A DNA stretch of 37,348 bases from Bacillota bacterium. Lineage in GTDB: Bacteria > Bacillota > Sulfobacillia > Sulfobacillales > Sulfobacillaceae. The notes beneath the pieces are model-generated. The model ran no database searches. It had not been told where the DNA came from and saw nothing but the letters and a program-made list of their open reading frames with translations. The position numbers and the translations under genes are program-made. The stretch covers positions 1-37,348 of the forward strand of contig JAJZZH010000004.1 of assembly GCA_021797675.1 (NCBI GenBank), written 5' to 3'. Positions 496 to 34,360 of this stretch are shown one piece after another. Position 1 is the first letter of the stretch. Every line of letters begins with the position of its first letter.

Positions 496-1476
496 GTGAG
501 GGTCCAAGGAGAGATGGTAACACGGTCAAGAGGTGGCCCTTTGGGACTGAAGAAACCGGGCATTCGGAGCCATTGGCATACGTTTAACAAAAACAAGGCA
601 TTGTTTACACTGTCTATGCCCGCCTTGATTTATATCTTCGTAATGTCTTATCTGCCCATGGTTGGTGTGGTGATCGCTTTTAAGCAGTACTACGACAACA
701 CGGGGATATTTGGCAGTCCGTGGGTTGGACTGCAGAACTTCCAGTTTTTCTTTCAAGGATCAGACGCCTGGCTGGTTACGCGCAACACGATTCTATATAA
801 CGCCGCATTCATTGTCTTCGGAATCGTTGCCGCCGTGGGACTGGCGCTGATCATGCATCAGGTGAAGGGCTCGAAACTGCTAGCCGCCTACCAAACGCTA
901 ATGCTGTTGCCCTATTTCATTTCATGGATTATCGTGGCGTACATTGTCTACGGATTCTTGTCCCAGCGGTATGGAATGCTCAATCATGTGTTGCCCGTGC
1001 TGGGGTTTAACCACGTTGCATTTTATCAATCGCCGCAGTTTTGGCCCTATATTCTCATCATTTGTAATCTCTGGCGCAACGTCGGTTTCGCGACCCTCGT
1101 CTACTTCGCGGGCATCATGGGGATTGACCCTACCTATTTTGAGGCGGCGATCGTCGACGGAGCAAGCCGCTGGCAGATGGCCCGTCTGATAACCATTCCC
1201 ATGATTAGCCAGTTGATCGTCATCTTGTTCATTATTGCGGTGGGCGGCATCTTCAACGCGGATTTCGGTCTGTTCTATTTTGTGCCCAACCAGTCGGTGT
1301 TTCTAACCAATGTGACGCAGGTTATCAACACCTACGTGTTCAATGCCCTGATGTCTCTTGGCAATATCGGGATGGCGGCCGCCGTGGGCTTGTACCAGTC
1401 GTTTGTGGGCTTCGTTCTCGTGCTGTTCACCAATTGGGTAGTGCGACGCATTAGTCCCGATCATTCGTTGTGGTAA
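496..1476 (+). CDS. ABC sugar transporter permease, LplB/YtcP type
   Basis: Integral membrane permease of a carbohydrate-uptake ABC transporter, of the LplB-type family that works with a second permease and an extracellular binding protein. About six hydrophobic helices are visible. The cytoplasmic EAA loop reads EAAIVDGASRWQMARLITIP near residues 216-235, the site that contacts the ATPase. The start is uncertain: GTG 496 is the longest, ATG 514 has AAGGAG only 2 nt upstream, and TTG 541 follows GAGGTGG. It is first in a three-gene operon with the genes at 1519 and 2492. No ATPase gene is present, as is common for systems that share an MsmX-type ATPase (known for Firmicutes; inferred here). 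Confidence 0.9.
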   Translation: MRVQGEMVTRSRGGPLGLKKPGIRSHWHTFNKNKALFTLSMPALIYIFVMSYLPMVGVVIAFKQYYDNTGIFGSPWVGLQNFQFFFQGSDAWLVTRNTILYNAAFIVFGIVAAVGLALIMHQVKGSKLLAAYQTLMLLPYFISWIIVAYIVYGFLSQRYGMLNHVLPVLGFNHVAFYQSPQFWPYILIICNLWRNVGFATLVYFAGIMGIDPTYFEAAIVDGASRWQMARLITIPMISQLIVILFIIAVGGIFNADFGLFYFVPNQSVFLTNVTQVINTYVFNALMSLGNIGMAAAVGLYQSFVGFVLVLFTNWVVRRISPDHSLW

Positions 1477-1518
1477 AACGCCTTGCTGGGACTCGAATTG
1501 GGAAATGGGGTAGGTATC

Positions 1519-2403
1519 GTGAAAGATGCTCGCGGGATCACCGCAGTAATCATCCACATCGTGCTCGGGTGCCTAAGCGCCTTCTTTCTGATTCCCCTGC
1601 TGTTGGTCGCGTCCATCTCACTGACCCAGCAGCAGTGGGTAAATGCGCATGGATTTAGCCTCTGGCCGCATGTCTTTTCGCTCGAGGCCTATCAGTATAT
1701 CCTGCAAGCACCTTCCATCCTGTTGCATGCCTATGGGGTGACGATCTTCATCACCGTGGTGGGAACGACCGCGAGTTTACTGATGGTCACCTTGATCGGT
1801 TATGTCATTTCGCGACCCGACTACGCCTACCGGGGGGTGACCACGCTCTACATCTACTTCACGATGCTATTTAGCGGGGGTTTGGTGCCGTTTTACTTCC
1901 TCATGACCAAGTACCTGCATCTCGGCAATACGGTCTGGGCGATGATTGTGCCGGGTCTGGTCAGTCCGTTTTATGTTCTGGTGATGAAGGGCTTTCTGGC
2001 CAAGATTCCTATGGAAATCATCGAGGCGGCAAAGATTGACGGCGCAGGCGAATGGCGCATCTTTTTTCGGATTGTGCTTCCGATGGCCACCCCGGCGCTG
2101 GCTACGGTCGGCGTCTTCACGTCCTTCGCCTACTGGACGGAGTGGTTCAATGCCTTGCTGTTCACTACGACCCAAAGTTTGACGCCGATCCAGTTGCTGT
2201 TATATCGGATCTTCGACGATATCTCCCTAATCACGTCGAATCCCCAGGCCGCCGCGGCGTTGCATTTGAGTTTCGAGAAGATCCCCACCACGGCGTTGGA
2301 AATGGCCATGGTCATGTTCGTGGCGGTACCCATTTTGGCGGTGTTTCCGTTGCTTCGCCGCTATTACGTGCAGGGCCTGACTGTAGGCTCGTTGAAGGGG
2401 TGA
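1519..2403 (+). CDS. ABC sugar transporter permease, LplC/YtcP type
   Basis: Second permease of the transporter, related to LplC/YtcP. It has six predicted membrane helices and the EAA loop EAAKIDGAGEWRIFFRIVLP, which mates with the nucleotide-binding subunit. I prefer GTG 1519 as start because GGGGTAGG lies 4-5 nt upstream and the protein then begins MKDARGITAV just before the first helix; an in-frame TTG at 1483 has no ribosome site. It follows the first permease by 42 nt and precedes the binding protein by 88 nt, so co-transcription is expected. The two permeases would form a heterodimeric channel for an oligosaccharide whose identity cannot be read from sequence. Confidence 0.9.
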   Translation: MKDARGITAVIIHIVLGCLSAFFLIPLLLVASISLTQQQWVNAHGFSLWPHVFSLEAYQYILQAPSILLHAYGVTIFITVVGTTASLLMVTLIGYVISRPDYAYRGVTTLYIYFTMLFSGGLVPFYFLMTKYLHLGNTVWAMIVPGLVSPFYVLVMKGFLAKIPMEIIEAAKIDGAGEWRIFFRIVLPMATPALATVGVFTSFAYWTEWFNALLFTTTQSLTPIQLLLYRIFDDISLITSNPQAAAALHLSFEKIPTTALEMAMVMFVAVPILAVFPLLRRYYVQGLTVGSLKG

Positions 2404-2491
2404 TGCCAGGGGAACAACAGTGGGGCGACGACGGAGTGAAACGGCATGATTGACAACTACAAAACGACAACTCTATAAAGGGGGTTTTCAT

Positions 2492-4093
2492 GTGAAATTG
2501 CAGAACAGGACCGTCAGACTGGCCTCGGTAGTGGCTTTGACCGGCAGCTTGGGGTTGGGGAGCGTCGGTTACGTCTACGCTGGGCTCGTTAGGCCGGCAC
2601 GGGTCAACCCCGTGACTATCAATTGGTATTATCCAGAAACCAACTCCAAGCAGGCGGCCCCACCGAATCTATCCCAGGTGGAGGTGGCGATCAATCGCAT
2701 TGCCGTGCCCAAGATCGGAGTGCGGGTCAACCTGCAACCTATCGCGGAGGGCCAGTATGCGCAGAAGATGGCGCCGATGCTGCAGACGGGAGAGGCTAAC
2801 GGCATCGTATGGACGTCGAATTGGATGTTGCCGTTCACGACTGAGGTGGGTGCCCACGCCTTTAAGCCGTTGAATCATCTGATTGCTCAGCGCGGCCAGG
2901 GCCTGGAAAGAGTGATCGGGGCTAAGTTCTTGAAAGGCACGGCGGTCAACGGAACGATCTACGGGATTCCCAATATTCAACTGGAAGTGCGGCACTCGGG
3001 CATCTATGGCATCCTCCTCACTAGTAACGTCAAAAAAATTGCATATCCGCTGAAGCTCAAGCATGTTACGGCATTGAATTACTGGACTTCGCCCACGGTG
3101 AACTCGCTGGCGCACCTGCACAAATTTCTCTTGGCCGTCCATAAGGCGTTGCCTGAGGTAACTCCGCTTCAGCTGTCGGCAGGCTATGATGGTTTCGACT
3201 CGACATGGTACGGATATTGGACCGTTCAACCCAGCGCTTGGGATCAGAACAACCCTAACCTGCCATTTTTCATTAGGATCGGCAAGTACGGGAAGACCCC
3301 GCCCAAAATCACGTTGGCCCTGAACGCGCAAAAGCAGTTTATTGCGATGATGCATGAATGGTATCAACAGGGGCTGATCAACAAGAATGCCGGGACCATG
3401 ACCAGCAGCCAAACCATGGCTGCTCCGCTTGGGTCCAGTGTGATGATTGGGTGGAACAATGCGCCGGATTGGACGGGAACAACGGGCGCTCTTCCGGCCA
3501 GTGAGGTTGGAAAATACCGGGATCTCCTTTTCTACTTTAACAATGGACCATTGCATGGGGCGTACGAATTCGTCGGCGACCAGTCGACTATCAACGCCAT
3601 TGCGGCGGGAACTACCCACCCGCGGCACGCGATGGCACTGCTGAACATGGTCAACACGAACGCCCGGGTGTACAATCTGTTGGTGAACGGCATTGCGGGC
3701 GTGGACTACACGAAGACCGGACCAAACAGGATTAAGTACACAAAGTCCGGCTCCACGTGGTTTCAGAACAGCAGTTGGGTGATGGGTGACGTGTTCAACG
3801 GATATATGACCAACACTTCGCCAGGATATTCATTCAACCTGGTCAAGAAATGGAACTCCAGCGGGATCGCGTCGCCAGCTGTCGGGTTCACGTTCAATCC
3901 GACTTCGGTTCAGTCGCAAATCGCGAATATGAGTAGCGTGGCCAGTCAATGGGTGCAACCGTTATTCAACGGGGTATATCCCGTCAGTAAGTTCAACCAG
4001 TTCGAACATCAAATGCAGGCAGCCGGCCAGGCGCAGGTCTTAAAGGCCATGCAGCAACAGTTCGATGCCTGGTGGAAAGCGGCTCATTCCTGA
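2492..4093 (+). CDS. Extracellular solute-binding protein of the sugar ABC transporter
   Basis: Substrate-binding component, about 533 residues, of the size usual for LipO-like partners of LplB/LplC permeases. GTG 2492 is chosen because AAAGGGGG lies 7 nt upstream; the TTG at 2450 would add 14 polar residues before the signal. Residues 1-30 form a Sec signal peptide with a probable cut after YVYA. There is no lipobox and no cysteine anywhere in the protein, so it is not a lipoprotein, unlike most Firmicutes binding proteins. It may be held by the permeases or wall, or be released. Many Trp and Tyr residues are present, typical of carbohydrate pockets. A terminator-like hairpin follows at 4110. 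Confidence 0.85.
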   Translation: MKLQNRTVRLASVVALTGSLGLGSVGYVYAGLVRPARVNPVTINWYYPETNSKQAAPPNLSQVEVAINRIAVPKIGVRVNLQPIAEGQYAQKMAPMLQTGEANGIVWTSNWMLPFTTEVGAHAFKPLNHLIAQRGQGLERVIGAKFLKGTAVNGTIYGIPNIQLEVRHSGIYGILLTSNVKKIAYPLKLKHVTALNYWTSPTVNSLAHLHKFLLAVHKALPEVTPLQLSAGYDGFDSTWYGYWTVQPSAWDQNNPNLPFFIRIGKYGKTPPKITLALNAQKQFIAMMHEWYQQGLINKNAGTMTSSQTMAAPLGSSVMIGWNNAPDWTGTTGALPASEVGKYRDLLFYFNNGPLHGAYEFVGDQSTINAIAAGTTHPRHAMALLNMVNTNARVYNLLVNGIAGVDYTKTGPNRIKYTKSGSTWFQNSSWVMGDVFNGYMTNTSPGYSFNLVKKWNSSGIASPAVGFTFNPTSVQSQIANMSSVASQWVQPLFNGVYPVSKFNQFEHQMQAAGQAQVLKAMQQQFDAWWKAAHS

Positions 4094-7741: not shown

Positions 7742-10700
7742 GTGAATGTTTTGAAGCGGTGGAACGGAACAATCATGCGGGCAATTGCACTGTTGCTGGC
7801 GCTTTTTCTGATAGGGCCTGGCTTGATTCTCTCGGGTCCAATGGCGGTAGAAGCGGCGTCATCCTCTTCTACAGGCAGTCTCGTCACACCGACCGCCAGT
7901 TTCGTGGGCGTCGACACGGCCACGCAAGGTAACTGGGTTGGGGTGTATGGCAAGGACGGGTATGTGTTGCCCTATTACACTGCCACGGTGGCCTTCGGCC
8001 ATCAGAGTCCGACTCCGGCTGATGTGGCGAAGTTGCCATCCTATGTGAGTGGCTATTCTGGCACGGGAGTTGAATGGGCATACCAGAATCCCACCACGGA
8101 TCCGGGGTCCTTGGAGTCGCCGACCGGTAGCGTCCGTAAGGCGGTGGTGACCAACGCGCCTTACAGTGTGTCGGAGAGTTTTACCTTGACGGATACGGCG
8201 CCGCACCTATTCACCGTGTATTCGGACACCTACGCTTACGGGAATACGTATCGGTTTGAGATTGTGAGTCCGGGAGGGCAGGTACTGGCTTCTCAAACGG
8301 TGAGTAGCGCATCGAAGTCTTGGAATCCGTCGAATGGGGAGTATGTCTCGTTTGAGGTGAGCGGTAGCTTCACCTTGCGAGTCACGGCCGTGTCGGGAGG
8401 ATCCCACTACGTCATGCTGTCGGGCTTTTTCTTTGACCCCATCGTGCCGAATACCCTCTCGAATGTGAGTGTGAGCCCACTGCCGAATCGTGCGGTGCAA
8501 ATCAATTGGAACAACGGTAGCAATGAGCGCACGAGAATTCTGAGAAAAGAGGTGGGTGTGGACACGTCGTTTGCGCCCATCGCCATCCTGTCTGCGGGCA
8601 CGAGCAGCTATGTGGACAGCAACCTGACTCCCGGGGCCACCTACCAGTATGAGTTGCAAGATGTGGAGGCCACTGGGCCGATCGCTTCGGTGCCCACATC
8701 GGTGTACTCGGTGACCCTTCCAGCCTATACCCCGACCACCCTGAGCTTTACGCAGCCTTCGCTCACGGCCTCAGCGCCTGGACAACCGTTGCAAGTGCAG
8801 GCGGTGCTGAAGGATGTGTACGGGCCCGTCTCTGATCAGACCGTGACGTTCACCTTGCAGGGACCCAATGTCGGCACGTACATCAGCAGCGTCGTCGGGA
8901 CGGCGGTCACGGACGCAAACGGCGCGGCAACGGTTTCCTACACGCCGCCGTATGCCGGACACTACCATATACAGGCCACCTTCCCGTGGAATGACGCGCA
9001 AAAGCTGGCTGCCAGTTCTGCAACCATCCCGTTGACGGTGGATGTCGTCCCGTGGACGGTGCCGCCGACCATTTTCCACAGTTCGGATGCGGTACTCCCG
9101 GGACAGGTGTTTAACCTCGTAGGAGCCGGACTGTTCCCCGATGGGCAGGAGGCGGTGGCCGCTCCCTTAAAAGGCGAAACTCCGCCTGCGAACACGCCTT
9201 CGGCGGACGCGACTGCGCTGACCGTGGTGCAGAGCAACGCCAGCGGGGCTTTTATGACGGTGCGTCTCCCTGCGAGTGCGGCTCCCGGAGAGTACGCCGT
9301 CTGGGTGAAAAATGGGTTTGGCTGGAGTACGCCCTTTATTCTCAATGCGCCCAAGCCCTTATGGATCTCAGCTGCCAAGGCGTCGGCTGGCGAGCGAGTA
9401 ACGCTCACCGGGCGCAATCTCGATGCCGTGCAGTTCGGGGTGCACAGCCAAACGGTCATGACGCAAGTCCGGCTGGCTCCCGTGAGCAGTGGACAAAGCG
9501 GCCGCTCCTATCCAGTGAGCCTGGTGCGAGTCAATCCGTATGCGGTGGTATTTCGCGTCGACCATCGGCTGCCGGTGGGGCAATATGGAGTAGAGATCTC
9601 AAACGACGGCGGGCAAACCTGGGCGCCGCTGAGCGACGGGCAGAGCCTGCAGATCGTTCCCCAAGGCCCCGATCCCTTGCACTTGGGGGTGGCGTGGGCA
9701 AGCGCTTTTCACTGGAACCGGATCTTCAACGTCGAGCACTACGGGGCGATGCCCAACACGGGGCAAGACGTCACCACGGCCGTGCAAGACGCGGTCAATC
9801 AAGCCGCGGCGGCCGGTGGCGGCGTGGTATACTTTCCGGCGGGGACGTATAACATTCACCAGGTCGAGCTGCCTGCGTACGTGGTGTTGGAGGGTGCGGG
9901 GCCGACCGCGACCACGCTCAACTTTGACGGCACCGGCAGAATGACCATGATTCAGTCGGTCGGTAACGGGATTACCGTAGGCCATCAGGGAATCGCCAAC
10001 TTGGGCCTGGGCGTGGCGAACCCCCAGGTCTACCCGGACTCCTTTCTCTGGCTGGGGTATCCGTACGGCGCTACGTGGTATGATACTGCGCTCCGTCATT
10101 CAAGCGATTACTTTATCGACAACACCAAGCTAAGCTACCCCCTCACCTGGGCGCCTGACACCAGTTGGCATCCAGTTCAGGGCCGCGGGATGGGGTTGGT
10201 TCTCACCGCGAAGCAAAACGTCGTGATCCGGTCTAACGACTGGATGGGGTACGGGGCGGCGGTGGAATATTGTCTGGTCAACCAATACGTAGACATCCAG
10301 GGTAATCATTTCGAGTACACAACCGGGTCGCTCCTTGATACTGCGTCCTACAGCCTGGTTGAGCACAATCAACTCATCGGGCAGCCCCAGTATGACACGC
10401 CGGCGAATCCAGCATACCTGACCACGAACAGAGCTATAGGTTTTGACCTCCGGTCGAGTTACTACGTAGCCCATAACGCGCTCCAGAACTTAGGGAACGA
10501 GACGACCCAGCAATACAACCCGGATGGATGGTATGGGGGCGAACAGCCAGGTAGTCCGATGGATTTGGGGCAGGTTCTGGGCGGAACCACCAACGCTATC
10601 GCTGTAGCCCCGACGGTTCCGTTTGGTGCCGTTCAAGATGGCTTTGGGAACATTTCGGGAACGACGACGGGAGCGACCTATAACCTGCCGGTTGCATGGA

Positions 10701-11752
10701 GTCGCCTCCGGGTCATGATCGTCGGGGGGCAGGGCACAGGCCAGTATCGCCAGGTCGCCAGCATTACGGGCAACACGATCACGGTGACCCGGCCGTGGAC
10801 GGTAGTGCCGAACGCGAGCAGCCAGTTTGCGTTCGGAACGTTAGGGATTGCGGATACGGTCTACCAGAATTCGTTCACCAACACGTCGAGGGGGCTCCTG
10901 TTATACGGAGGTTTCATCGGGGAGACCGTCGCCAACAACTCGTTCAACGGCGGAAGTGGCGTGCAGGTGGATGCCTTTTACTACGGTTTGTCATCGGGCC
11001 GCGATACCCCGGATTACTTCGATGTCGTGCGCAACAATGTCTTTACGAATCTGCAACAGCCGACGGTGTTGCCGGCGGGGGTGGACGAATCTTACATGTA
11101 CGGCGTGGGGTTGATGTCGGCGAATTCGGGGAACACAGCGTTCGGGTTGGGTGCGTTCGGGACGGAATTCACCGGCAATACACTGCAATATACGCAATCC
11201 ATCGAACCGACGAAATCCTTGTATGTGTTTGCCCAATCTCTGGCCGGTGACGGGCCAACGATAGTGGACACGATCGTGCAGGGCAATCGATTTGTGAACC
11301 TGAACCCTGCGATCGTGTTGACCGCAGGCGTAGCGGACACCGTGCTGAGCGGCAATCAGTATGACAATGTCAGCACCGACGTGAACAACCAAGGGGCGGT
11401 CAACACGGTGACCACGCCCTTTTCCCATCAGGACACGACGGCGCCGTTCTGGCCGACCGATTCAACGGTGAGCGTGACGCCGACGGGACCGCGCAGCGTG
11501 ACGCTGGAGTGGACCCCGGCGGTCGACACCAACGGGGTAACCCAATATCAAGTCTGGGTGAACGGACGGCTCACCGCCATCGTAGGGGCGAACGTCACCA
11601 GCGATCAATTGGGCGACCTCAAGGCGGGGCATTGCTACCGGGTTCAGATCCAGGCGGGCAACGTGGCCGGGAACTGGAGTCTCGGCGGACCCACGGTGAA
11701 GGTGCGCTTGGCGCCAAATACCCCGGAGATCGGGTCACGCGGTCGGCGCTGA
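7742..11752 (+). CDS. Secreted modular protein with pectate-lyase-type beta-helix, FN3 and Ig-like domains
   Basis: A 1336-residue exported protein. GTG 7742 follows AAGGAGGT (7723-7730). Residues 1 to about 38 are a Sec signal peptide ending near VEA. Next come a beta-sandwich (about 40-235), an FN3-like domain (240-330), a Big_1-type Ig-like domain (330-440) and two IPT/Ig-like segments (to 650). A right-handed beta-helix of the pectate_lyase_3 superfamily follows (about 660-1190, opening with HYGAMPNTGQDVTTAVQDAV and GGGVVYFPAGTYNI) and then an FN3 domain (1240-1325). Such helices are found in pectate lyases, polygalacturonases and other polysaccharide enzymes; the substrate is not determinable. 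The C-terminus is abnormal: the ORF stops where further Ig-like coding sequence continues in another frame. Confidence 0.8.
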   Translation: MNVLKRWNGTIMRAIALLLALFLIGPGLILSGPMAVEAASSSSTGSLVTPTASFVGVDTATQGNWVGVYGKDGYVLPYYTATVAFGHQSPTPADVAKLPSYVSGYSGTGVEWAYQNPTTDPGSLESPTGSVRKAVVTNAPYSVSESFTLTDTAPHLFTVYSDTYAYGNTYRFEIVSPGGQVLASQTVSSASKSWNPSNGEYVSFEVSGSFTLRVTAVSGGSHYVMLSGFFFDPIVPNTLSNVSVSPLPNRAVQINWNNGSNERTRILRKEVGVDTSFAPIAILSAGTSSYVDSNLTPGATYQYELQDVEATGPIASVPTSVYSVTLPAYTPTTLSFTQPSLTASAPGQPLQVQAVLKDVYGPVSDQTVTFTLQGPNVGTYISSVVGTAVTDANGAATVSYTPPYAGHYHIQATFPWNDAQKLAASSATIPLTVDVVPWTVPPTIFHSSDAVLPGQVFNLVGAGLFPDGQEAVAAPLKGETPPANTPSADATALTVVQSNASGAFMTVRLPASAAPGEYAVWVKNGFGWSTPFILNAPKPLWISAAKASAGERVTLTGRNLDAVQFGVHSQTVMTQVRLAPVSSGQSGRSYPVSLVRVNPYAVVFRVDHRLPVGQYGVEISNDGGQTWAPLSDGQSLQIVPQGPDPLHLGVAWASAFHWNRIFNVEHYGAMPNTGQDVTTAVQDAVNQAAAAGGGVVYFPAGTYNIHQVELPAYVVLEGAGPTATTLNFDGTGRMTMIQSVGNGITVGHQGIANLGLGVANPQVYPDSFLWLGYPYGATWYDTALRHSSDYFIDNTKLSYPLTWAPDTSWHPVQGRGMGLVLTAKQNVVIRSNDWMGYGAAVEYCLVNQYVDIQGNHFEYTTGSLLDTASYSLVEHNQLIGQPQYDTPANPAYLTTNRAIGFDLRSSYYVAHNALQNLGNETTQQYNPDGWYGGEQPGSPMDLGQVLGGTTNAIAVAPTVPFGAVQDGFGNISGTTTGATYNLPVAWSRLRVMIVGGQGTGQYRQVASITGNTITVTRPWTVVPNASSQFAFGTLGIADTVYQNSFTNTSRGLLLYGGFIGETVANNSFNGGSGVQVDAFYYGLSSGRDTPDYFDVVRNNVFTNLQQPTVLPAGVDESYMYGVGLMSANSGNTAFGLGAFGTEFTGNTLQYTQSIEPTKSLYVFAQSLAGDGPTIVDTIVQGNRFVNLNPAIVLTAGVADTVLSGNQYDNVSTDVNNQGAVNTVTTPFSHQDTTAPFWPTDSTVSVTPTGPRSVTLEWTPAVDTNGVTQYQVWVNGRLTAIVGANVTSDQLGDLKAGHCYRVQIQAGNVAGNWSLGGPTVKVRLAPNTPEIGSRGRR

Positions 11753-29071: not shown

Positions 29072-29522
29072 TCCTCGGATCCGGTCCCGACCGGATTGAC
29101 CCCCGCATCGGCAACGCGTTCTCAGCGGCACGGCGATCCCATCGGGCTGGTTTCCTTGCGCTCCCGGACCCTTCCCTGGCCAAAGAACCCCCGGGAGATC
29201 GGCAGACAAGGATGTTTGCCCAAGGGGTGGGACCACCTGCCGCAGGTTTCGGATGTTATTGGCCGACAGGCCATGGTCCAAGACGGCCTCCACGCGAGAG
29301 GACTAGCGAACCGATCGAAAGTCTCTGCATGTAGGCCCGATGAATGTGGTGCCATCGCCGATGCCACCATCCGCGTCTGGATCAGGGCCATGGCACCTGT
29401 CTTGCACCTGGCCGGAGGGGTTATGGTGTCCTCATCCGCCTTGGTGCGCGAGCGGGGATAGACGGGCCCGGGCCCAGGCGTTATCATCAGAACGCACCAC
29501 AACACGCGAAGGAGATGGTCTC
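29072..29522. other. Region between L,D-transpeptidase and GNAT genes
   Basis: About 450 bp. The plus-strand frame in front of the GNAT gene is open but lacks family similarity. On the minus strand a frame includes DHGLSANNIRNLRQVVPPLG (about 29210-29290), which might be a relic of a mobile-element gene, but I cannot name a family. Confidence 0.35.
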
Positions 29523-30623
29523 GTGGGGACTAGCAGGGCGCGCCGGGCGCGCCCGGAAGACGTGCGGGCGCTGGGGGAATTGTCCGACCGGGTCTTCCGG
29601 CCGACGCTGCCACCAGGGGCGGGGATGCCCGTGGAATTTCCCCGCCTGTTTCACGCAGACAACGCTGGCAATCTCTATTTGGTGGAGGATTCGGCAGGAA
29701 ATCCGGTGAGCATGGTGGGAACCTATCCCAGCGAACTGGTGAGCAACGGAATCCGCCTCACGGCGGTTTCTATCGGCTCGGTGGCCACCTTGCCCGATCA
29801 CCGTGGTCGTGGTTACGCTACCGAGATGCTGGAAATGATCATCGAAGATCATTCCCCGCATCATTCCATTATGCTGGTCTCTGGGGGCCGCGGATTGTAC
29901 GCACGCCTGGGCTGTGTGGAATTCGGAACGCTGCTACGAGCCTGGTGGGAGCCGGCTGACTGGTCAGACACCCGCGTGACCTGCCGGGAAAGCGCTTACC
30001 CCCGGGGGGATGCGTCGATGCTCCACCGACTCTACCAAACGGAAGCCTATCGGGTGTTGCGAACGCCTATCGAAATGGAAAGCTATGTGAATGCGACCAC
30101 AGCACCGCGTTTTCGAGCTCGCCCCGCGCCGGGACGCGTGTTGATTGCTGAACGGGAGGACACGGCAGTGGCCTACGCGGTGGCCGCTCCCGGCCGGGAA
30201 GGCGCAGCCATCAACTTCTTGGAGTGGGCGGGAGACCGGGCCGGATTGCTGAGCTTGGCCCAGTATGCCTTGCGCCAGATGCAGGGAGACCGCGTGGAGT
30301 GGCGCTTTCAGCCCGGCGACCGGACGCTCGGCGGTCTGTTGGCGGCCCATCGCATTCCCCATGAACCCTGTCCCAATCAAGGCACGATTGCGCTACTCAA
30401 CCCAGAGCGACTATTGAACGAAGTGAATCCATGGATTGAGGAGCAAACCGGCCAACGTTTAACATGGCAGCAAGGATACCAGGTGGCATGGTCGGGATCT
30501 CCCCCCGCCGAGGTGCCGTCGCTGCCCACCGAACCCAGTCGCGCTGCCCTGACCCGATGGTTCTTTTCGGCCGACGGAGTGAACGTGCCCTTGGTAGATA
30601 CCGGCGGACTAAGCTACATTTAG
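29523..30623 (+). CDS. GNAT acetyltransferase, Eis-like multidomain type
   Basis: About 367 residues. GTG 29523 is chosen because AAGGAG (29509-29514) lies 8 nt upstream and the protein then starts just before the first GNAT strand (RRARPEDVRALGELSDRVFR); the frame open to 29340 is not protein-like. The N-terminal GNAT domain (about 5-140) has the acetyl-CoA loop VATLPDHRGRGYATEML (R/Q-x-x-G-x-G/A). A second GNAT-like part (about 150-290) and a C-terminal tail make it similar in layout to Eis-type acetyltransferases, which modify amines on aminoglycosides or proteins. The substrate here is unknown. It is transcribed alone and ends at the terminator at 30701. Confidence 0.8.
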   Translation: MGTSRARRARPEDVRALGELSDRVFRPTLPPGAGMPVEFPRLFHADNAGNLYLVEDSAGNPVSMVGTYPSELVSNGIRLTAVSIGSVATLPDHRGRGYATEMLEMIIEDHSPHHSIMLVSGGRGLYARLGCVEFGTLLRAWWEPADWSDTRVTCRESAYPRGDASMLHRLYQTEAYRVLRTPIEMESYVNATTAPRFRARPAPGRVLIAEREDTAVAYAVAAPGREGAAINFLEWAGDRAGLLSLAQYALRQMQGDRVEWRFQPGDRTLGGLLAAHRIPHEPCPNQGTIALLNPERLLNEVNPWIEEQTGQRLTWQQGYQVAWSGSPPAEVPSLPTEPSRAALTRWFFSADGVNVPLVDTGGLSYI

Positions 30624-30722: not shown

Positions 30723-30913
30723 GTTGACGATCCTCCAAGCTAAGCGGGTCCCAACAACGGATGATCTTGCCCGAAATATGCGAGCCGCGGCGACTCAAGA
30801 GACAGGAATCTGCCGCATGCTTCACGAATGGATAGGGTCATGACTTTACGGTCGCCCAGCATGCGGCGATGGATTCACCAAGCGGCGGGCGTCAGCATTC
30901 TGGGGAGGATTTC

Positions 30914-33664
30914 ATGGAGTATCGAAGCTTCAGCAAAGGGACTTGGGCGGGAATCCTGGGACTTTTATTGACCAGCGGCAGTGTTGGGTGGTCGGCGACG
31001 CGTCCCGTGACCGCCAACGCGGCCGTCGGTTCCCTACAAACGGCGTGGAACCGCCTCATTCTAGAACCGGGTCTCCGCCATTCGAGCGTATCCGCACTCG
31101 CCTATGATGTAACCACGGGTCAGCCGCTGGCGGCGGTTGACCCCAACCTCCGCCAGCCGCCGGGGTCAGTGACCAAGTTGTTTACGACGGCCGCTGCCTT
31201 GGCGCAACTGGGCCCCAACTTTTCCTATCGGACGTTGGTGGCCGCCCCTAAGTCGGTAGCCGAGGGCGTTCCTGGACCCGTGTATCTGGTGGGCGGAGGG
31301 GACCCCTGGCTTGAGGCCAACGGAGCTCACGCCCTGCAAACGCTGGCGGCTGCGGTGGCGAAGCGGGTCCGATCGGCGACGCGGGTGGTCGGGGTGAGTT
31401 CGCTCTTTTCGCCGCCAACCTATGGCCTGGGTTGGCCCTATGGCGTCTTGGGCCAAAATTACGGTGCCGGGACCACCGCCCTGATGGCCGAACGGAGCGA
31501 AGTGTTTGTGACCGTGAAGGTTGGAGGCCCCGTAGACAGCGCCCCGCGGGTTCAGCTCACCTTTAATGCCAACCTGATGATTCCTTCATATTTCCACGTG
31601 ATCAACCTTGCGAAGATTGGCACGGCGCAGAGTTCCGACACGATTGCAGTGACGCGCCGCCCCGGCACCAACGACATCGTGGTGACGGGGAGCATTCCCG
31701 CGACGTCGGCGGCCAATGGCCCGTTTGTCGTGTCGGTGGGCAAGCCTCCTCGGTTTGCCGCTCAGCTGTTTGAGGTGGCACTCCAACAAGCGGGTGTGCA
31801 TTTTGCGGGAAACGCTGCCACGGCTCCCGGGTTGCCCGCGGGATTCGTGACCCTGGCGAGTTACACTTCGCGAAATTTAGTCAAGTATCTACCGATTCAA
31901 AACCAGTTTTCGATTAATCAAATGGCAGAAAACCTCTACCGAGAACTCGGCGTGCACGCGACCCAAAAGGGCTCGCTGGCCGCCGCGAGTGCAGCTATGG
32001 CCCGGTTTTCGGCTTCCGCCGGCCTCTCCCCGGACCGGGTCCAGGTGGATGGTTCGGGGCTTTCCCCGTTAAACGAGGCCAGCGCGGCCGAGGTGGTCCA
32101 ACTCTTGCGCCATGTGGTCCGCCGACCGTACTACAGGGTGTTTCGCAATGCGTTAATGAATCTGAACCACGTCAAGAGCTGCGGATTTTTGTGCCCTCCC
32201 CAGTGGTCGTACGTTCTTCCTAAGGGCGCCAACCTCTGGATAAAGACGGGTAACCTGAGCAATCAATGGAATTACGCGGGATACGCGCGAGCGGCCAATG
32301 GCAATCTCATCGCCTTCGCAATTTTGGACAATGGGGAGCCGACGTCCGCCAACGCCTATCATGGATCACCCGTCGATACCATGATGCAGGATGTGGCGCT
32401 GTGGCCCAACGTCCCGGTGCCGGCCAGTTCTCCGCCCGATTTGCCTGCGGTGCCTTCGGCCTATTGGCAACGGAGGTTGGAAAGCGCGATCCCAGGGCGC
32501 TCGGGCAGTTTGGTCGGGATTTCTGTCGAAAACGTGACGACTCGGCGCACAGTGTGGGCCCAAAACGCCAGTCTGCTCATGCCTGCCGGCTTGCTGACGC
32601 GCGTGGTTCTGGCCGACGCTGCGTTGAACGCCGGCCCAGTCCCTGCCAAGCCCGTTACCGTCAAGGCGGTGGGCAGCGTGGCTGACGGCGAATTGCATGG
32701 AAACTTGGTGCTTAATGGTGACCATGACCCGCTGTTGTCGGGGGCCGGGCTTGCCCAATTGGCCGAGCAGGTGCGACGATCCGGCATTCGTCAAGTCGAT
32801 GGTGCAATGCAATATGTGCAGCCTCCCGCCGCCCGTTGGCCGCGCGCAATACCCTGGAACGATCTGGGCCGGGCCGGAACCCCTCCGCGCACCGCCTTAA
32901 TGGTCAACCAAGATCAGGCCACCATTCAAGCCAGGGGCACCCGGAATGGTCACTCGGCATCGGTGGTGGTATATCCCACGCAAACGCCAATCGATGTCGT
33001 CAATCAGACGCTTACCTCGGCCTCCGGCTCGGCCGCCGTGCACATCCGGCTCCGGTTGGCGACCGACACCTATATCGTCAGCGGGACGGTGCCGGCCGGC
33101 CATAGCGTGTCGATTCCGGTGGCGCCGCCAGATCCTGGTCGATATGCGGCCTTACGGTTTCTGGCCGCACTGAAGCAAAGCGGGGTGCAAGTTCTCCATG
33201 GCCTGGGGGCGACCCCTCATCCCGTTGCTGGCTCACCGGTGGCTGAGCATCCCGGCCCCAGCCTGGCCCGCCTCATCGCGGCATCGTTCCAATCGACGTC
33301 GACGGCCGCGCCGGCCGCCTTGGAGTACGCGCTGGGTCCAAATTGGGGAGGGGCAATGCGGCAAGTGCTCGGTGCATACCCCAGTTATCTGGTGGATCCC
33401 ACCGGAGTTGGCTTAAGCAACTACCTGACGCCCGCGGGAGTCACCACCCTGTTGGTCAAGGCGTGGAATCAGCCGGGTGATGCTCCCTTGGTCCATGCGC
33501 TGACCGCGTCGGGGCTTTGGGTGACCACCGATCCGGAGACCCGCGACCTCGTCGGATATCTTAAGGCGCCTAATGGCCAGGAATACGCAGTGACGGTGAT
33601 GGTTAGCGAATTGCTGTGGAATCACCGATTTGGCGCAACGGTGGCTCGGCTTCCGGCTCCTTAG
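30914..33664 (+). CDS. Duplicated PBP4-type D-Ala-D-Ala carboxypeptidase (peptidase S13), second half degenerate
   Basis: A 916-residue exported protein with two S13-like halves. ATG 30914 follows GGGGAGGA; ATG 30869 lacks a site. Residues 1 to about 37 are a signal peptide ending ANA. Half one (about 38-495) has all penicillin-binding motifs: Ser85-V-T-Lys88, Ser333-I-Asn335 and Lys444-T-Gly446, so it should cleave or transfer D-Ala from wall peptides. Half two (about 505-916) aligns along its length (VGISVENVTTRRTV with SALAYDVTTGQPL, LVLNGDHDPLL with VYLVGGGDPWL), but the SxxK block is PAG559-L-L-T and neither SxN nor KTG is present. Family members normally have one S13 domain of 400-500 residues. 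It precedes the AlkA gene by under 70 nt. Confidence 0.9.
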   Translation: MEYRSFSKGTWAGILGLLLTSGSVGWSATRPVTANAAVGSLQTAWNRLILEPGLRHSSVSALAYDVTTGQPLAAVDPNLRQPPGSVTKLFTTAAALAQLGPNFSYRTLVAAPKSVAEGVPGPVYLVGGGDPWLEANGAHALQTLAAAVAKRVRSATRVVGVSSLFSPPTYGLGWPYGVLGQNYGAGTTALMAERSEVFVTVKVGGPVDSAPRVQLTFNANLMIPSYFHVINLAKIGTAQSSDTIAVTRRPGTNDIVVTGSIPATSAANGPFVVSVGKPPRFAAQLFEVALQQAGVHFAGNAATAPGLPAGFVTLASYTSRNLVKYLPIQNQFSINQMAENLYRELGVHATQKGSLAAASAAMARFSASAGLSPDRVQVDGSGLSPLNEASAAEVVQLLRHVVRRPYYRVFRNALMNLNHVKSCGFLCPPQWSYVLPKGANLWIKTGNLSNQWNYAGYARAANGNLIAFAILDNGEPTSANAYHGSPVDTMMQDVALWPNVPVPASSPPDLPAVPSAYWQRRLESAIPGRSGSLVGISVENVTTRRTVWAQNASLLMPAGLLTRVVLADAALNAGPVPAKPVTVKAVGSVADGELHGNLVLNGDHDPLLSGAGLAQLAEQVRRSGIRQVDGAMQYVQPPAARWPRAIPWNDLGRAGTPPRTALMVNQDQATIQARGTRNGHSASVVVYPTQTPIDVVNQTLTSASGSAAVHIRLRLATDTYIVSGTVPAGHSVSIPVAPPDPGRYAALRFLAALKQSGVQVLHGLGATPHPVAGSPVAEHPGPSLARLIAASFQSTSTAAPAALEYALGPNWGGAMRQVLGAYPSYLVDPTGVGLSNYLTPAGVTTLLVKAWNQPGDAPLVHALTASGLWVTTDPETRDLVGYLKAPNGQEYAVTVMVSELLWNHRFGATVARLPAP

Positions 33665-33727: not shown

Positions 33728-34360
33728 GTGCAGTATTTGATGCGACGCGATGCCCGCTTGGCAGTGCTGATTGGTCAGGTTGGTGTCGTCGACGTTTGCC
33801 TGCGCCGCCAATATTTTCCGTCATTGGTGCGGGCCGTTGTCGGCCAGCAGCTCTCGGTGCACGTCGCCGAACGCATTTACCACCGCCTTGAAGCGAACGT
33901 AACCCTTACTCCGGCGGCGCTGCGGGCGGCGAGTGACCAAACCTTGAGGGATTCCGGCCTCTCGGCAGCCAAAATGGTTTATATTAGGGAGTTGGCGGAA
34001 AGCGTGGCGCTTGGTGACCTGGTCTTAGAGCGCCTGACTAAGCTGCCTGACGAGCAAGTAATCGAGCAGCTGACGGCGATCAAGGGCATTGGAATGTGGA
34101 CGGCCGCCATGTTTCTCATTTTTTCGTTGGGGCGGCTTGACGTCATGGCAACTGCCGATGCCGGCTTGCGCCGAGCCATTCACTGGCTTTATGCCTCCGA
34201 TACGGAGTACCGCGGCCAAGCTCCCGACTGGGCAACGATGAGTGATCGATGGCGTCCGTATCGCACGGTCGCATCGCTCTATTTGTGGGAGACCATTAAC
34301 CAAGACCTGGTGGCGCGGCCTCGTGAGGTTGTGTTGTCGAAGCTGAATCGAACGCATTAA
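33728..34360 (+). CDS. DNA-3-methyladenine glycosylase II, AlkA-like (HhH-GPD)
   Basis: Base-excision repair enzyme that removes alkylated purines. The HhH motif LTAIKGIGMWTAAMFLIF is followed by the GPD loop DVMATADAGLRRA with the catalytic Asp144. The N-terminal TATA-like AlkA domain is absent, as in the short bacterial form of about 200 residues. GTG 33728 follows GGAGG by about 8 nt. However, family-like sequence (IRFGPEDPAVQYLMRRDARL) continues upstream to an ATT codon at 33701, which has GGAAAGGGGG in front, so the true start may be non-canonical. It is 36-64 nt after the PBP4 gene, hence probably co-transcribed. No methyltransferase partner is nearby. Confidence 0.85.
   Translation: MQYLMRRDARLAVLIGQVGVVDVCLRRQYFPSLVRAVVGQQLSVHVAERIYHRLEANVTLTPAALRAASDQTLRDSGLSAAKMVYIRELAESVALGDLVLERLTKLPDEQVIEQLTAIKGIGMWTAAMFLIFSLGRLDVMATADAGLRRAIHWLYASDTEYRGQAPDWATMSDRWRPYRTVASLYLWETINQDLVARPREVVLSKLNRTH

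Follow-up and report, generated by a model that had tools for sequence, protein, structure and literature searches.

Gene and domain organisation

The stretch of Bacillota DNA analysed here (37,348 nucleotides, hereafter the window) contains a gene for a cell wall peptidase of the S13 (PBP4) family that seems to carry a second, catalytically inert copy of itself in the same chain, which raises the question of what such a copy is kept for. The gene is located at 30914-33664 on the plus strand and encodes 916 amino acids. Its open frame spans 30869-33664, and the ATG at 30914 is favoured as startcodon because it is preceded by a strong Shine-Dalgarno sequence (GGGGAGGA, 30902..30909, plus strand, found by direct reading). 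The first 37 residues (30914..31024, plus strand) probably form a Sec signal peptide, as judged from the short N-terminus, the hydrophobic stretch and the ANAA end.

The Pfam profile PF02113 matches the protein twice and the two halves match each other, in agreement with a preliminary description of the protein as an internal tandem duplication of an S13 D,D-carboxypeptidase. When run separately, the N-half gave an E-value of 8.5e-52 (176.8 bits) and the C-half one of 1.6e-25 (90.2 bits), both above the cut-off of 22.8 bits, and the PBP4 equivalog profile TIGR00666 (cut-off 107.8 bits) recognised the N-half at 139.3 bits and left the C-half below its threshold at 74.5 bits. Compared directly, the halves align with an E-value of 2e-10 over 262 columns in BLASTP and with 99.6% probability over 380 columns in a profile-to-profile comparison, a likeness that at the sequence level is far beyond chance. 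A model of the full-length protein reached a pTM of 0.49, which is too low to read the relative placement of the two halves.

The gene sits between those for a GNAT acetyltransferase (29340-30623, plus strand) and a HhH-GPD DNA glycosylase (33728-34360, plus strand), neighbours that are common only to the nearest relative (L037). No neighbouring gene recurs throughout the relatives, and hence the operon context gives no account of the C-half. A plasmid protein search returned only three weak matches, each covering less than half of the query. The genome of the window has no second S13 protein, as its third, weak PF02113 match (C45) is one of its four S11 enzymes. Elsewhere in the window, the plus strand encodes a protein of 1336 aa (7742-11752) that matches a pectate-lyase-like domain, fibronectin type III and, weakly, Ig-like domains, and is probably a large surface protein. 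It also carries a pair of ABC permease genes with a gene for a DUF3502 protein behind them (496-4093), probably a sugar or oligosaccharide importer.

Active-site motifs of the two halves

The N-half (residues ~38-511, 31025..32446, plus strand) contains the SVTK, SIN and KTG motifs attributed to it in the preliminary description. These were read at 31166..31177 (SVTK, with the catalytic Ser85 and Lys88), 31910..31918 (SIN, residues 333-335, starting with S333) and 32243..32251 (KTG, residues 444-446, starting with K444), with a DGSG segment at 32048..32059 (residues 379-382), all on the plus strand. From these motifs and the family membership we infer that the N-half is a D,D-peptidase.

Two further observations concern substrate binding by this half. 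Residue D145 of PBP4a has been named as diaminopimelate subsite in a paper on P. aeruginosa PBP4 (PMC5054556); the position aligned to it by HMMER is a Val in the window and variable among the relatives, and the N-half may therefore have a side-chain subsite unlike that of PBP4a. Secondly, in part of the window's family the KTG of an otherwise intact N-half reads KPG (L004, L014, L016, L044 and L050) or KSG (L043), substitutions which may alter substrate binding in the active half and which make the full activity of every N-half less than certain.

The C-half (residues ~512-916, 32447..33661 with the stop codon ending at 33664, plus strand) was recognised from its PF02113 match, its model and VIA-align. 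It had been described as carrying GLLT in place of SxxK; the loss of the motif stands, but the register was one residue off, since both the profile alignment to DacC (1w5d) and the start of helix alpha-2 (47-62 in the model of the N-half and 48-61 in that of the C-half), identify the true counterpart as LLTR (L560-L561-T562-R563, 32591..32602, plus strand). The catalytic Ser is thus replaced by Leu and the Lys by Arg563, the latter invariant in a 16-sequence family alignment. The absence of SxN and KTG was likewise borne out: the aligned helices have TST (residues 795-797, 33296..33304) at the position of SxN, and in the models and the profile alignment the strand bearing KTG in active S13 enzymes reads LWVTTD, with TTD at 33524..33532 and a shortened loop following it. 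The profile alignment also places DPTG (33395..33406) as counterpart of the DGSG of the N-half; all these segments are on the plus strand.

The fold itself is retained, as had been proposed. The model of the C-half (mean pLDDT 84.7, pTM 0.82) found S13 enzymes as its best PDB matches, with VIA-align Z-scores of 30.9 for R39, 30.6 for PBP4a (1w5d; 381 residues, rmsd 3.1) and ~28 for the PBP4 proteins of E. coli and H. influenzae, so that the C-half is S13-like and not some unrelated domain. An active S13 enzyme would have the catalytic Ser and Lys together with SxN and KTG, none of which is present in the C-half, and no rebuilt catalytic set was recognised among its invariant residues. As modelled, the C-half keeps the S13 fold but none of the S13 motifs, and is predicted to be catalytically dead.

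Distribution of the fusion among relatives

A survey of related genomes found the same fusion with the same dead C-half in all 25 complete relatives, the protein of the window being counted among them: 14 from the Sulfobacillaceae-like genomes of the window's family, three from the Alicyclobacillaceae and eight from a third family. In the 34 genomes of the window's family, every one of the 14 complete S13 genes is a tandem in one open frame (928-1022 aa), and a fifteenth S13 gene is divided over contig ends. No two-domain S13 gene occurs in the order's other families. Outside the order, the fusion is found in Alicyclobacillus mengziensis and A. acidiphilus; it is present in three of the 41 Alicyclobacillaceae genomes, where it accounts for the only three complete S13 genes, and in nine of the ten genomes of the third family, in eight of them complete. 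At the catalytic position of the C-half, all 25 complete relatives have Leu or Trp instead of Ser, and the position of the Lys holds Arg. Several of the named carriers, in Sulfobacillus and Alicyclobacillus, are acidophiles.

A search across 398 genomes of Bacilli, the class to which Alicyclobacillus belongs, likewise returned many S13 open frames of 930-1026 aa with two strong matches each, and in one Bacilli family a two-domain S13 locus is present in 37 of the 39 genomes. The three motifs were read in each half of 34 such tandems, taken from a score-ordered list, so that the resulting fractions are not population estimates. Both halves were intact in 16 tandems, the N-half was lesioned in ten (in two of which, L184 and L185, only the Ser of SxN is lost) and the C-half in eight, and there was no tandem with both halves lesioned. 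By parsimony on a tree of the Bacilli tandems, the state of the N-half changed at least twice and that of the C-half at least five times, at least seven changes in total, and counting the loss in the window family as well brings this to at least eight. In four Bacilli pairs with a lesioned half, the dN/dS of that half was 0.08-0.13, the same as that of the live half. The same search also returned two other arrangements: two S13 domains encoded by neighbouring open frames (528 and 770 aa) that do not share a reading frame (L197, genome G429), either a tandem that has been split or an error of sequencing, and single S13 proteins of ~700 aa with ~250 residues ahead of the S13 domain (L195 and L196).

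In trees of the separate halves, the N-halves and C-halves of the window family and those of the Bacilli tandems each formed one clade. The N-half and C-half clades of the window family are broadly congruent in order, which indicates that its halves evolved together. The halves of the Bacilli tandems grouped with each other (support 95/100), as did those of the window family (90/93), which suggests two separate internal duplications; a single origin shared with the Bacilli tandems is not favoured by the tree. The window-family branches are long and gave a warning from the tree program, and trees in which the N-halves of both groups (p-AU 0.334) or the C-halves of both groups (p-AU 0.213) are joined were not rejected. 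The independence of the losses holds with one fusion or two, because most of the Bacilli C-halves are intact.

Selection on the C-half and its likely role

Our preferred reading, which we regard as probable, is that the protein is a secreted S13 D,D-peptidase in the form of a covalent pseudo-dimer, with an N-half that catalyses and a C-half that is a selected pseudoenzyme scaffold. Dimers are known among S13 (PBP4) enzymes. In the proposed mechanism, the N-half would bind the D-Ala-D-Ala end of the peptidoglycan stem peptides, and an acyl-Ser85 intermediate would form and then be hydrolysed, in a D,D-carboxypeptidase and/or endopeptidase reaction. The non-catalytic C-half would stand in for the other protomer of a PBP4-type dimer, a fixed partner that keeps the active half stable and in position on the wall; we infer both this scaffold role and the contact between the halves.

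The strongest argument for this reading comes from the Bacilli tandems: either half can lose its active site and the second domain is still retained, as would be expected if it is the body of the partner that is selected and not its active site. In eight pairs of relatives of the window's protein, dN/dS was 0.08-0.35 for the C-half and 0.10-0.31 for the N-half, and although some of the dS values are high and rough, the C-half is not decaying; at the sequence level the C-halves are clearly constrained and are under purifying selection. The C-half had the higher mean column entropy, 1.71 against 1.23 for the N-half, and in relation to this 1.71 its segments gave 1.99 (SxN), 1.50 (KTG) and 1.28 (LxxR helix). 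Conservation at the former SxN and KTG positions thus does not clearly exceed that of the remainder of the half, which speaks against a ligand cleft, and the pattern is easier to reconcile with a body that has been retained than with a preserved substrate cleft. The single feature that does not sit easily with a retained body is the invariant Arg; together with the LxxR helix, the best conserved of the motif segments, it could point to a dedicated role for the former active site.

That Arg also speaks for the most serious alternative, in which the C-half is a peptidoglycan-binding module that keeps a stem peptide or a glycan uncut, in its former cleft or on some other surface, and feeds it to the N-half. 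Such a module would account for the retention of the entire S13 fold under purifying selection, and for an Arg invariant at the general-base position on a comparatively conserved LxxR helix; however, this helix is the only segment to stand out, the SxN and KTG positions are no better kept than described above, and the loop at KTG is shortened. The substrate-binding role suggested in the preliminary description is therefore weakly disfavoured, and we consider a binding module unlikely, if still the best of the alternatives.

A regulatory C-half, which might for instance restrain the N-half until a partner or wall signal frees it, in the way that degenerate homologues govern other wall hydrolases, would be compatible with the data, as is a scaffold; the preliminary description had proposed regulation as one possibility. 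In its favour, a conserved dead homologue under selection is joined covalently to an active hydrolase of the wall, and in the Bacilli tandems the dead half can be N or C. Against this, there is no conserved neighbour gene as candidate partner, and the many Bacilli tandems with both sites live indicate that the architecture does not require a dead half; we consider regulation less likely than a binding module.

An active site rebuilt from other residues, or a decoy for beta-lactams as had also been proposed, would find some support in the invariant Arg of the old site, but with no Ser nucleophile at that site in any of the complete relatives no acylation by beta-lactams is expected, and with no conserved catalytic set recognised we regard either as improbable. 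That the C-half is a decaying relic of the duplication, as its lost motifs and higher entropy might suggest, is the least credible of all, given its low dN/dS, its intact fold and its retention in every complete relative across three families.

Returning to the covalent pseudo-dimer, its extension to the tandem PBP4 proteins of Bacillota in general is more tentative, and we put it forward as a possibility with somewhat less than even chances: these proteins would be internalised dimers, in which evolution repeatedly turns one protomer, either of the two and never both, into a selected pseudoenzyme.

Comparison with known systems

Both halves resemble B. subtilis PBP4a/DacC (1w5d) and the Actinomadura R39 enzyme (1w79) in their S13 fold, and the N-half also in its SxxK, SxN and KTG motifs, whereas these enzymes have a single S13 unit of ~460 aa, one active site per chain and no covalent dead copy. 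E. coli PBP4/DacB (2ex2), a member of the S13 D,D-carboxypeptidase/endopeptidase family with the same motifs as the N-half, likewise has one S13 unit per chain and is more distant in sequence. A further parallel is with the Bacilli tandems (L164-L200), which also have two S13 units in a chain of 930-1026 aa, one of them lesioned in 18 of the 34 read; they differ from the window family in that about half keep both sites and that the lesioned half can be either one. Degenerate LytM proteins such as EnvC and NlpD control amidases, and similarly represent a dead peptidase homologue kept beside an active wall hydrolase, but the analogy is one of principle only, as they are separate proteins of another fold that act on amidases.

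Single-domain S13 enzymes are well known, and since any profile search would reveal the tandem, others may have seen it. Full-text searches of an open-access library, which is not the whole literature, turned up neither tandem S13 proteins nor an S13 pseudoenzyme, and a survey of five serine protease families (PMC2605481) does not treat S13.

A comparison of tandems with both halves live, with a dead N-half and with a dead C-half would test whether the partner serves catalysis, stability or placement. If the internalised-dimer reading is true, these tandems would offer a natural series in which to ask what a D,D-peptidase needs a second body for, allostery between protomers and positioning on the wall being examples. 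They also carry a warning for annotation, as in 18 of the 34 Bacilli tandems and in every complete member of the window family one PBP4 domain has lesioned motifs and is still called S13 by a profile search.
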